The translations under genes were made by a program, and so were the position numbers. DNA of 22,810 bases from a virus: positions 26,804 to 49,613 of IMG/VR virus record IMGVR_UViG_3300030451_005683; one strand, 5' to 3'. Below are positions 19,710 to 22,769 of this stretch, piece by piece (positions within the stretch are counted from its first letter, which is position 1; the number at the start of each line of letters is the position of its first letter). The notes beneath the pieces are model-generated. The model saw only the letters and a list, made by a program, of their open reading frames with translations, made no database searches and was not told the DNA's origin.

Positions 19710-20254
19710 TGAGTAAAGAAACAGAACCACTCATAATAAACACACCGGAAGATGGTTTTCTTCGTATTGGTAAAACCACCGATGAAAAAAAACTAAGACC
19801 TGATCAGGTGCAATTAGCTGGTGGTTGTGGATCTAGTCTGAGAATTTTCGAGGATGGTGGATGGGAACTTAGATCTAGAGAAAATAAAAAAGGTTGTAAC
19901 CTTATAGCAAAAGGAGACGGTGGTTTACACATCTATTCAGAGGGTGATGTTAATATAGATGCAAGAGGTGACTTCAATGTTTCTGCAAGAAATATTACGA
20001 TGGAAACCACTGCTGATGATGGAGACTTTACTGTTTTCTGTAAAAGGGATATAATGTTAGATGCAGACAATAATTTCAAAGCATTTGGAACAAAGTGTGT
20101 TATTACAGCATCAGATACTCTAATATCACACTCAAAGGGATGGAATGTTGTTGCCGGTAATCCAGTGTATGTGTATGAGAAGAAGACCAAACTTATACCA
20201 ACATCAGCACAGGATATCCTAAACTCGTTATTTGAACAATTCTTATTAAATTGA
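19709..20254 (+). CDS. Beta-helix spike-like protein (gp5 C-terminal/VgrG type)
   Basis: This 181-aa protein is chosen to begin at ATG 19709, in a TGATG overlap. After a short N-terminus it has regularly repeated beta strands: GGLHIYSEGDVNIDARGDFN, VSARNITMETTADDGDFTVF, and KRDIMLDADNNFKAFGTK. The spacing of G-D/V-x-I/V-x-A turns resembles the triple-stranded beta-helix of the gp5 needle and of VgrG proteins. Because the preceding gene carries the OB-fold part, the two probably form the membrane-piercing spike as separate chains. The helical end (TSAQDILNSLFEQFLLN) may be a trimer cap. The fold is inferred from the repeat pattern. Confidence 0.6.
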   Translation: MSKETEPLIINTPEDGFLRIGKTTDEKKLRPDQVQLAGGCGSSLRIFEDGGWELRSRENKKGCNLIAKGDGGLHIYSEGDVNIDARGDFNVSARNITMETTADDGDFTVFCKRDIMLDADNNFKAFGTKCVITASDTLISHSKGWNVVAGNPVYVYEKKTKLIPTSAQDILNSLFEQFLLN

Positions 20255-20517
20255 TGGTATTTTTTTCTATTATATTATCATTCTTTGCTAATCATCTACC
20301 TGTGATGTACGTTCAAGTACCACAGTGGACAGATGACTGGGCAGTTTGTGCTGTAGATATACCTGATGCAAAGTGTCACTGGTATATCGTGTCACCTGAC
20401 AATACATTCGGTGAAGGTTTTGACTGGGAAACAGCACCATGGTTCGATGCTAATGGACTAAATGATATAGCACCCATGCAAGCAAAAACAGTCGTGGAAA
20501 AACTACAGGAAAGGTAA
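20254..20517 (+). CDS. Small protein with hydrophobic N-terminus
   Basis: This 87-aa protein begins MVFFSIILSFFANHLPVMYV, which could be a signal peptide or membrane anchor. The rest is polar and tryptophan-rich (VPQWTDDWAVCAVDIPDAKC, WETAPWFDANGLND) with two cysteines that could pair. ATG at 20254 is preferred because it lies in the usual TGATG overlap; a TTG lies one codon upstream. I do not recognise the family. Its location between the spike and a fibre protein suggests a tail accessory. Confidence 0.55.
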   Translation: MVFFSIILSFFANHLPVMYVQVPQWTDDWAVCAVDIPDAKCHWYIVSPDNTFGEGFDWETAPWFDANGLNDIAPMQAKTVVEKLQER

Positions 20518-21377
20518 TGGAATCACCAGAAGTATCAGCAGGAAAAGTTTATATCGGTCCAAGTATACCGGTAAAACTTGATCTATCAGCATTTACACTC
20601 AACTCAAAACTTCCTTTCAATGGAACGTTAGCATGTGTGGGTCCTGCATTTTTTGGTGCAGTACCACCAACAGGTTTTGCGAGAGCAATGTGTCAGATGG
20701 GTCCGGGGATACCACCGTTTATATCAGCAGTTCCGGGTCTAACACTCGAAGTTACGGGTGGCACACACCTAATGGGATATCTGAATGCCTTTGGTCTAAA
20801 CTCTATGATAGGTGTGACCAACAATATTGGTGTTCATAATGGTATAGGACTCAAGAATATGCTTGGGTTTCATAACAGGGTAGGAAAGCAGACAGCAGTT
20901 GGTGGAGAAACATCAGCAGAACCGAAGAAGTTCTGTGCAGCACCAACGATGACTCTTACATCTGTAAATGGAACACTCAGAGGTAGTTGGAATCATAATG
21001 GTGTGCCACTGACTCTCCTGCATGCTCATTCAGATAGAAGTCTAAAGAAGAATATACAACCTATACTATCACCTCTGTCTAAAGTTCTACAACTTCAAGG
21101 CGTTACATTTGAATGGAATCATAAGACTTTGGCAAAGAACAGACCGGGAACTATGATAGGATTGATCGCTCAAGATGTTGAAAAAGTAGTTCCAGAAGTG
21201 GTCATAAATACTCGTATCGATACTGATGGTAAAAACCATGAAGTCAAAGGTATCATGTATGAAAACCTTACTGGTCTCTTAGTTGAGGCGATCAAGGAAC
21301 AAAACAAGCGAATTGAACATCTAGAACAATGCATTGCTACACTACAAGCGGAAAAGTCCACATCGACGGAATCATAG
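20517..21377 (+). CDS. Tail fibre/spike protein with C-terminal S74 chaperone domain
   Basis: This 286-aa protein ends in a clear peptidase S74 (endosialidase chaperone) domain: SDRSLKKNIQPI at 172-183, LQGVTFEWN at 193-201, IGLIAQDVEKVVPEVV at 214-229, then a leucine-zipper-like helix (YENLTGLLVEAIKEQNKRIE, 248-267). The catalytic Ser172 and Lys177 keep the S-x4-K spacing of endosialidase chaperones, so autocleavage just before Ser172 would release a mature protein of about 171 aa. That part is rich in glycine and contains a short repeat (NNIGVHNGIGLKNMLGFHN, 102-120). S74 domains help trimerise beta-helical fibres. It starts in a TAATG overlap. Confidence 0.85.
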   Translation: MESPEVSAGKVYIGPSIPVKLDLSAFTLNSKLPFNGTLACVGPAFFGAVPPTGFARAMCQMGPGIPPFISAVPGLTLEVTGGTHLMGYLNAFGLNSMIGVTNNIGVHNGIGLKNMLGFHNRVGKQTAVGGETSAEPKKFCAAPTMTLTSVNGTLRGSWNHNGVPLTLLHAHSDRSLKKNIQPILSPLSKVLQLQGVTFEWNHKTLAKNRPGTMIGLIAQDVEKVVPEVVINTRIDTDGKNHEVKGIMYENLTGLLVEAIKEQNKRIEHLEQCIATLQAEKSTSTES

Positions 21378-21628
21378 AATTACCAGAAGATTGGCAGGGT
21401 AACATCAAACCAGAAACAATTTCTGTACAACTGACTGCAATAGGGACAGCTCAGGAGTTGTTTGTAAAAGAAATTCAGTGGGGAGCGAAGGTTATAGTAA
21501 GAAACGGTGGAGGTGGTGCATTGAATGCATATTATACTGTAACTGCAGAACCAATCAAGGTCGAACAGGCACCGGAACCAATTGTGTTGAATGACTTCAA
21601 ACCAAAAAAGAAAAAGTTGACTGCATAA
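21329..21628 (+). CDS. Small beta-rich tail accessory protein
   Basis: This 99-aa protein includes GKVHIDGIIELPEDWQGNI, ISVQLTAIGTAQELFVKEIQ and AYYTVTAEP, ending in a lysine-rich tail (KPKKKKLTA). This pattern (IELP..W.G......V.LT..G...L.V) recurs in C-terminal parts of phage fibre proteins next to S74 domains in cyanophages. The ATG lies 49 bases inside the S74 gene, so it is read in another frame and is probably translationally coupled. A structural role next to the fibre is inferred. Confidence 0.6.
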   Translation: MHCYTTSGKVHIDGIIELPEDWQGNIKPETISVQLTAIGTAQELFVKEIQWGAKVIVRNGGGGALNAYYTVTAEPIKVEQAPEPIVLNDFKPKKKKLTA

Positions 21629-21644
21629 GTACCTGTGGTATAAT
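21617..21644 (+). promoter_or_regulatory. Strong sigma70-type promoter
   Basis: TTGACT (21617-21622) and TATAAT (21639-21644) are spaced by 16 bases, and TGG immediately before TATAAT gives an extended -10. It is the best housekeeping-type promoter in the window. Transcription would start near 21651, about 16 bases before the ATG of the 57-aa ORF. Its -35 box overlaps the end of the preceding gene. Confidence 0.7.
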
Positions 21645-21666
21645 AGGGGAGTACCCGACTTTTATT

Positions 21667-21840
21667 ATGATTGATGAATTTGTAGATCTCGTAGAGGTAA
21701 ATATCGCTGCGAGATCTTTTTCTTTGTTTGGTTCTAATGGATCCTCAAAGATCATTGATGGACTAACAGTAAATCAATTCATGGCAGTCCTAGAAGTGAT
21801 TAGGGCAGCAGAAGATGATACGGAAATACTTTATGTATGA
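21667..21840 (+). CDS. 57-aa hypothetical protein
   Basis: The ORF encodes a small protein beginning MIDEFVDLVEVNIAARSFSL and ending VLEVIRAAEDDTEILYV, a mixed alpha/beta composition. No function is recognised. The stop overlaps the next ATG by 4 bases (ATGA), which supports it as a real gene. A terminator-like hairpin (21684-21717) lies within its first codons. No well-placed ribosome site is visible: GGGG at 21646-21649 is too far upstream and would mostly be outside a transcript starting near 21651. Confidence 0.55.
   Translation: MIDEFVDLVEVNIAARSFSLFGSNGSSKIIDGLTVNQFMAVLEVIRAAEDDTEILYV
21684..21726 (+). terminator. Terminator-like hairpin inside the 57-aa ORF (possible attenuator)
   Basis: AGATCTCG (21684-21691) is perfectly complementary to CGAGATCT (21710-21717), with an 18-base loop, and is followed by a T-rich tract (T5 at 21717-21721, then CTTTG). 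Counted from the strong promoter just upstream, termination here would yield an RNA of about 70-75 bases. The loop is long for a classical terminator and the stem is half AT, so efficiency is uncertain. Confidence 0.45.
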
Positions 21841-21986
21841 GCAAAATAAAATGCCCTGTATGCGGACATATCTGCAATAGCAGAATCGAATTTGGTTCGC
21901 ATATAAGGCGGTGTCAAGCAATAACAGGAGATAGAAATTTCAAGTTCAATAGAAAGAAGAACTCAAAGAAGAAAAAGAAAAAATAA
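21837..21986 (+). CDS. 49-aa CCHC zinc-finger-like protein
   Basis: The ORF reads MSKIKCPVCGHICNSRIEFG followed by SHIRRCQAITGD and a very basic tail (RKKNSKKKKKK). Cys6, Cys9, His22 and Cys27 form a plausible zinc finger. A zinc finger plus a lysine tail suggests nucleic-acid binding or binding to RNA polymerase, but this is inference. It is coupled by ATGA to the 57-aa ORF, and its TAA is immediately followed by the stop of the convergent gene. Too short for standard ORF cut-offs, it is easily missed. Confidence 0.55.
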   Translation: MSKIKCPVCGHICNSRIEFGSHIRRCQAITGDRNFKFNRKKNSKKKKKK

Positions 21987-22727
21987 TTATTCTCTTATAA
22001 ACTGAGCAAGATCAGGGTCTTGTAGTGTCTGCACTATCAAATTAGCACTGCTAATATCAGAATCTAATTCAACTTGTGTCTTACGATATCCATATCTTTG
22101 TAATTGATATTCTGATCGTGCTGCTTTCAATTCATTTATTGGTAATGTGACAGCATCTCGTGTTGCTTGTGCTGCTGTAATTTCATTATTCTTCGCAGTG
22201 ATACTACTTGCATAGGATGTGCACACTGCTTCTGTTCCAGTCAAAGCAAAAAATGTTCCAATACTGACAGTTATTATACCAGTATAAGTTGCAATACCAA
22301 CATTAGATGTGGTCATTGCAAAATTACTTTCGTTGAATGGATCTTCACCGGTATAGGAATTATCAGTGTAATCGTAATTATATAATTGAACTACATCCCT
22401 TCTTATATCTACAACTGCTGTGGCATCAGATACATAAGACGAACATCCTACTTGTGCAGCACCCGTGTATAGATTGAATAAATCTGTCTGTGCATCACTA
22501 ACAGGAGTGTTGAGTGTTAATATACGATCGTCTAGTCCTTTTGTAATGGGATCGAATCTGTTTATAACTTCATCTAGATTTTCTATTTTAGCAAGAATGT
22601 TATCTTCTGAATCTTTTATTTCAAAACCTTCTTGAGTTTTTGCTACTTCAGTTTTATCTTTCGCTGCTTTCTTTGCCTTCTCTTGAAAGGTCACTATTAG
22701 TTTTTCGGTTTGAGGACCAGATGCCAT
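21987..22727 (-). CDS. Putative virion structural protein (coiled-coil, leftward)
   Basis: This 246-aa protein has a charged helical N-terminus (LIVTFQEKAKKAAKDKTEVA), a beta-rich middle with several Ser/Thr/Tyr repeats (YNYDYTDNSYTGEDPF, NVGIATYTGIITVSIGTFF), and a long helical C-terminus (AKNNEITAAQATRDAVTLPI, TQVELDSDISSANLIVQTLQ). It resembles cyanophage virion proteins in composition but no family is recognised. It is transcribed against the neighbouring genes from a TATAAATA late promoter at 22759-22766, so late expression is likely. Confidence 0.55.
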   Translation of the reverse strand: MASGPQTEKLIVTFQEKAKKAAKDKTEVAKTQEGFEIKDSEDNILAKIENLDEVINRFDPITKGLDDRILTLNTPVSDAQTDLFNLYTGAAQVGCSSYVSDATAVVDIRRDVVQLYNYDYTDNSYTGEDPFNESNFAMTTSNVGIATYTGIITVSIGTFFALTGTEAVCTSYASSITAKNNEITAAQATRDAVTLPINELKAARSEYQLQRYGYRKTQVELDSDISSANLIVQTLQDPDLAQFIRE

Positions 22728-22766: not shown

Positions 22767-22769
22767 GGT

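Follow-up and report, generated by a model that had tools for sequence, protein, structure and literature searches.

A conserved host-type promoter of a DUF7294 gene and a clade-specific terminator-like hairpin in the late region of a T4-like cyanophage

Introduction

Cyanomyoviruses are without the polymerase modifiers of T4 (PMC2984593), and their early genes are thought to be transcribed by the unmodified host polymerase from sigma70-like sites (PMC2984593; PMC5931967). As regards the ends of transcripts in their hosts, Rho is absent from cyanobacteria, and canonical terminators account for only a minority of operon ends (PMC13289151); intrinsic signals may matter more in cyanobacteria since they are without Rho. 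Here we describe a locus at which a sigma70-type promoter and a terminator-like hairpin lie close together in the late structural region of a cyanophage. The source is an IMG/VR virus record of 49.6 kb, of which bases 26804-49613 form the stretch described here; this whole stretch of 22,810 nt is referred to as the window, and the coordinates below are those of the window.

Results

The proteins of the window are of the T4-like cyanophage type, and its gp32 homologue is nearest to those of uncultured marine viruses and of the Prochlorococcus phages P-SSM2/P-SSM5 (70-73% identity). The promoter and hairpin are ringed by baseplate hub, tail, and fibre genes. Because a DNA-level search of annotated phages gave little, its sole match being to P-TIM68 over 130 nt of the upstream gene, relatives were found via protein searches. 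Among these relatives, L001, L002, and L004 lack the 88-aa gene located at 20251-20517 of the window (PHROG 14182 ‘esterase’ / 1187), which L003 does have, and L001 carries an insertion of ~320 nt at 21989. A further contig, L145 (PAZU01000022.1), holds a close relative of the phage region inside a MAG labelled Euryarchaeota and is probably a mis-binned phage contig.

The promoter at 21617-21644 (plus strand) matches the sigma70 consensus at 11/12 positions. Its -35 hexamer, TTGACT (21617-21622), lies partly within the final codons of the preceding gene (21329-21628) and is separated by a 16-nt spacer, within the 16-18 nt of host-sigma70-type early promoters, from an extended -10 element, TGG-TATAAT (21636-21644, with TATAAT at 21639-21644). 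This is the best of 13 matches between 20000 and 22810, where shuffled sequences average 9.9 matches of any strength, and it agrees with a preliminary description of this DNA, which had placed a strong sigma70 promoter with an extended -10 within the late structural region; the coordinates given there hold. Judged from the position of the -10 element, transcription would start near 21651, giving a predicted short 5’ leader (21651-21666) ahead of an ATG at 21667. The sequence AGTACC flanks the -10 element on both sides (21628-21633 and 21650-21655); both copies read AGCACC in L004, a matched change, and the upstream copy is missing in L001-L003. Two other signals were considered and ruled out at this site: the late promoter motif TATAAATA, since the actual sequence at 21639-21646 is TATAATAG, and an NtcA-type GTA-N8-TAC site, since its spacing is not matched here. 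The only late motif nearby, a T4-type late promoter CTATAAATA, is found on the minus strand at 22767, upstream of a 246-aa gene on that strand (21987-22727), the first codons of which do not vary among close relatives.

For comparison of the promoter across relatives, redundancy was removed from 133 loci, which left 85 upstream regions; in each, the 100 nt preceding the DUF7294 gene, the 57-aa gene that begins at 21667, were scored. At least 10/12 positions matched in 80 of the 85, and 51 carried a perfect 12/12; background segments from the same loci reached 12/12 in 0/1,755 cases and at least 10/12 in 3.2%. As 80/85 relatives have a sigma70 promoter just upstream of the same gene, the assignment of 21617-21644 as the conserved host-sigma70-type promoter of the DUF7294 gene is well supported by this sequence comparison. 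Most relatives also share a GGTAATCAA motif after the -10 element, at the expected transcription start (80-90% per position; for example L007, L021, and L025); it is largely specific to the DUF7294 locus within each genome, and the clade of this virus is without it. In seven named cyanophage genomes, near-consensus sigma70 promoters number 7 to 34 per genome and lie nearly all on the forward strand, where consensus sigma70 promoters were counted at 22-34 in five genomes and at 7 and 14 in the others; a reversed-pattern control gave mostly 0-2, with a maximum of 6.

Downstream of the DUF7294 gene, many relatives carry tRNA genes (Leu-UAA, Thr-UGU, Ile, Met) or cpeT and oxygenase genes. The promoter and gene head a tRNA cassette before a large fibre gene in L006, L007, L011, L012, L021, L042, and others; the clade of this window has no tRNA at the DUF7294 locus. 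Given the conservation of the promoter, what has been published on early promoters, and the tRNA or cpeT and oxygenase genes downstream, host RNA polymerase very probably uses the promoter early in infection, and a small cargo island within the late region very probably receives its early transcript from there, the timing being our own extrapolation.

The 57-aa frame (21667-21840, plus strand) had been described as a weak leader ORF, an account that its family membership does not support. The protein matches DUF7294 (PF23966) at 33.6 bits against a curated cut-off of 27 and PHROG 662 at E 1e-6; 401 stretches encoding relatives were found in one viral scan, and nearly all relatives compared have the same promoter. 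In named cyanophages the gene is T4-like gene cluster 29 (PHM2_028 in P-HM2 and SSM2_021 in S-SM2, for example), usually found between baseplate/tail genes and the giant fibre gene, and AlphaFold predicts a beta-beta-beta-alpha-beta fold with a pLDDT of 93.6. With profile matches, relatives, synteny, and a confident fold in agreement, the frame is a genuine conserved gene, not a leader peptide of convenience. The observation that it has no good ribosome site is correct for this virus, but that is usual for the short leaders of the family. At its stop, the 57-aa gene overlaps (ATGA) with a 49-aa zinc-finger-like ORF (21837-21986, plus strand), which is probably on the same transcript and matches Pfam zf-C2H2 at E 0.043, short of the cut-off. 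The DUF7294 gene is also present, yet unannotated as a protein, in Synechococcus phage records OQ504982-OQ504984 and OQ319121. The AlphaFold model resembles the periplasmic/N-domains of FtsH, with five of the top 19 PDB matches being FtsH chains (prob 0.94-1.0, TM 0.52-0.63, E 0.02-0.13), a weak match for a small fold. FtsH acts in the turnover of the photosystem II protein D1 in cyanobacteria, and a phage mimic of it would for this reason be of interest, should so weak a match reflect one.

Within codons 6-17 of this gene lies an 11-bp terminator-like hairpin (21684-21717, plus strand), beginning at about +34 from the predicted start. Its arms, AGATCTCGTAG and CTGCGAGATCT, form 11 pairs, one of them G.U, below a further 3-bp apical helix, and are followed by TTTTTCTTTGTTT within a T-rich tract, TTTTCTTTGTTTGG (21718-21731). 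The perfect 8-bp stem with a T-rich tail reported earlier is thus the core, AGATCTCG/CGAGATCT, of a longer stem. A stable 11-bp stem directly followed by TTTTTCTTTGTTT is the arrangement of an intrinsic (Rho-independent) terminator, and the position of stem and U-tract inside the 57-aa frame is consistent with the earlier proposal of a terminator that overlapping translation could melt. A scan for consensus terminators missed the hairpin because loops were limited to at most 8 nt.

The predicted fold of 21651-21730 is dominated by the hairpin and has a minimum free energy of -21.1 kcal/mol (z = -3.3 against dinucleotide shuffles, 1/200 of which was as stable). Of the 11 terminator-like hairpins that the 49.6-kb record contains, this one has the lowest energy, -17.7 kcal/mol, and its d-score is +15 to +21; the window has two other candidates with a long stem, and both score negative. 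In the fold of the full 340-nt transcript, the inner eight stem pairs have probabilities of 0.96-1.0, and no alternative pairing of the hairpin arms appears in the minimum free energy structure. No run of one amino acid that could serve as sensing codons occurs in the 57-aa frame.

The main rival to attenuation is that the promoter serves the DUF7294 gene while the hairpin is an incidental by-product of codon choice in a short, conserved piece of coding sequence, with little or no termination in vivo, an account that we find quite possible though somewhat doubtful. In a recoding null, the protein was fixed and codons were drawn with the codon usage of the phage: a stem of at least 11 bp with a T-tail arose in 178/20,000 synonymous recodings (0.9%), and as stable a fold in 13/1,000 (1.3%). 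In favor of incidental structure, about 1% of recodings yield such a stem, and this one was picked from a large window. Against it stand the best terminator score in the record and two rare codons in the stem arms, CTC (9%) and GCG (8%), which are retained in all six relatives. The hairpin is above chance and not extreme (p ~0.01, picked from a 22.8-kb window), which is not overwhelming alone; its place 34 nt past a near-consensus promoter gives it added weight.

Four closely related viral contigs carry the hairpin, as does a phage contig that was binned in an archaeal MAG. Its stem is identical in six close relatives except for a single internal change in the apical part, A to G at 21703 (Ile/Val), after which a G.U pair can still form. 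Across the six clade members the -35 hexamer, extended -10, leader (21654-21666), stem, and U-tract are invariant, and the spacer and flanks vary. Synonymous changes number 0/17 in codons 4-21 and 15/30 over the remaining codons (p = 2.4e-4, for boundaries set post hoc); for codons 6-18 the counts are 0/12 and 15/35 elsewhere (p = 0.005). Since other gene starts in this virus group are often synonymously conserved too, that of the minus-strand gene at 21987-22727 being equally invariant, the conservation supports some nucleotide-level constraint without proving that the hairpin is its reason, and incidental structure could owe its invariance to this general conservation of gene starts. A reading of the same invariance at the level of DNA, in which a dimeric repressor would bind the inverted repeat as an operator placed shortly after the promoter, draws on the perfect 8-bp repeat at about +34 to +67, whose arms do not vary. 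Neither does the loop, so that conservation does not discriminate, and the one-sided T-tract and the RNA stability fit a terminator better; we regard an operator as highly improbable.

Beyond this clade the hairpin disappears. It is absent from the next relatives (49-53% protein identity), and among other loci of the DUF7294 family no equivalent terminator hairpin was found, a single weak 8-bp case at +103 in L018 aside. In a set of 80 relatives, the predicted transcript tends over its first 80 nt to be less structured than its shuffles (mean z +0.9, mononucleotide shuffles); this clade has three members in the set, and they are its three strongest outliers, toward more structure. This family-wide trend toward unstructured 5’ ends speaks against incidental structure; confinement to one shallow clade and absence from all other family members speak for it. 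Stem-breaking synonymous substitutions in an otherwise preserved ORF had been named as evidence against a functional hairpin: none occur in the close relatives, but distant relatives broadly show the equivalent, keeping the ORF without the stem, and any claim for the hairpin is limited to this clade for that reason. By comparison of these sequences, the hairpin is a derived, clade-specific addition and not part of the conserved promoter-gene design. Being absent elsewhere, it is not needed by the gene, which counts against attenuation as well.

The same distribution bears on the proposal that the ~70-75-nt RNA has a function of its own as a free-standing small RNA with host or phage targets, for which the promoter is partly kept. 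Promoter, leader, hairpin, and U-tract are conserved nearly as one block in the six relatives, as such an RNA would have it. Neither the promoter-leader block nor the hairpin was found away from the DUF7294 gene in the viral collection, however, an Rfam search of the window gave no match at E <= 1, there is no hairpin outside the clade, and the promoter is accounted for by the DUF7294 gene in all relatives. The earlier suggestion that the promoter was made for a small RNA is not supported by this comparison, given that the same gene lies downstream in almost all relatives, including those without an equivalent hairpin, and we consider a functional small RNA very unlikely.

Discussion

These results are consistent with a model of intragenic attenuation, to which we give roughly even credence: a promoter-proximal terminator within the DUF7294 gene would attenuate that gene, with termination presumed and an RNA of ~70 nt as its by-product. 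The promoter would give the DUF7294 gene and the zinc-finger ORF a transcript of their own inside the late structural region, and an intrinsic-terminator hairpin would have arisen in the first codons of the DUF7294 gene in the clade formed by this virus and its nearest relatives. On the predicted layout, with the start at ~21651, the AUG lies at ~+17, the stem at +34 to +67, and the U-tract extends to ~+80, so that polymerase would be at the U-tract ~70 nt after the start, when a ribosome would barely have loaded. Because the U-tract is reached very soon after the AUG emerges, termination would be frequent unless translation starts at once, and a sizeable share of transcripts may end at the U-tract as an RNA of ~70-75 nt. 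Read-through would be expected of transcripts on which translation of the first codons is already under way, and of those that come in from upstream late promoters. By the general footprint of a ribosome, one positioned on the AUG stops just short of the stem and would not melt it, and one that has moved past the first couple of codons would melt it. The net effect would be attenuation of the DUF7294 gene. In a stronger version, which we think unlikely, the terminator would be gated by translation and the gene expressed only if ribosomes load quickly enough, with the translation capacity of the infected cell setting the yield of DUF7294 protein and zinc-finger ORF against that of the ~70-nt RNA.

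A widely conserved, nearly perfect host-type promoter inside a cyanophage late structural region, almost always before one small gene and often ahead of phage tRNAs, points to a probable early role for that gene. If the hairpin terminates transcription, it would offer a clean natural case for the study of transcription-translation coupling in bacteria without Rho.

Among described systems, the psbA gene of S-PM2, with its structured 5’ UTR and the antisense RNA CfrI (PMC5931967; PMC2984593), is alike in having RNA structure near the 5’ end, a likeness by description; the gene is a different one, its hairpin lies in an untranslated region, and CfrI is antisense. Promoter-proximal intrinsic terminators and attenuators share with this locus a GC-containing stem and U-tract less than ~80 nt from the start and an overlap with a translated frame, translation of which could keep the stem from folding. 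Unlike known attenuators, the hairpin here lies inside the coding sequence of the very gene that it would regulate, and neither an antiterminator hairpin nor sensing codons were found, though control by ribosomes alone is conceivable; the hairpin may simply work like an attenuator, and we do not claim its membership of a named attenuator class. The host-sigma70-type early promoters of T4-like cyanophages (S-PM2, Syn9; PMC2984593) are alike in their TTGACA/TATAAT hexamers, forward strand, and non-structural gene just downstream, whereas the promoter described here has a 16-nt spacer, an extended -10, TTGACT as its -35 hexamer, and a predicted start without the GGTAATCAA leader. On its sequence features, the promoter fits the known early-promoter class of T4-like cyanophages.
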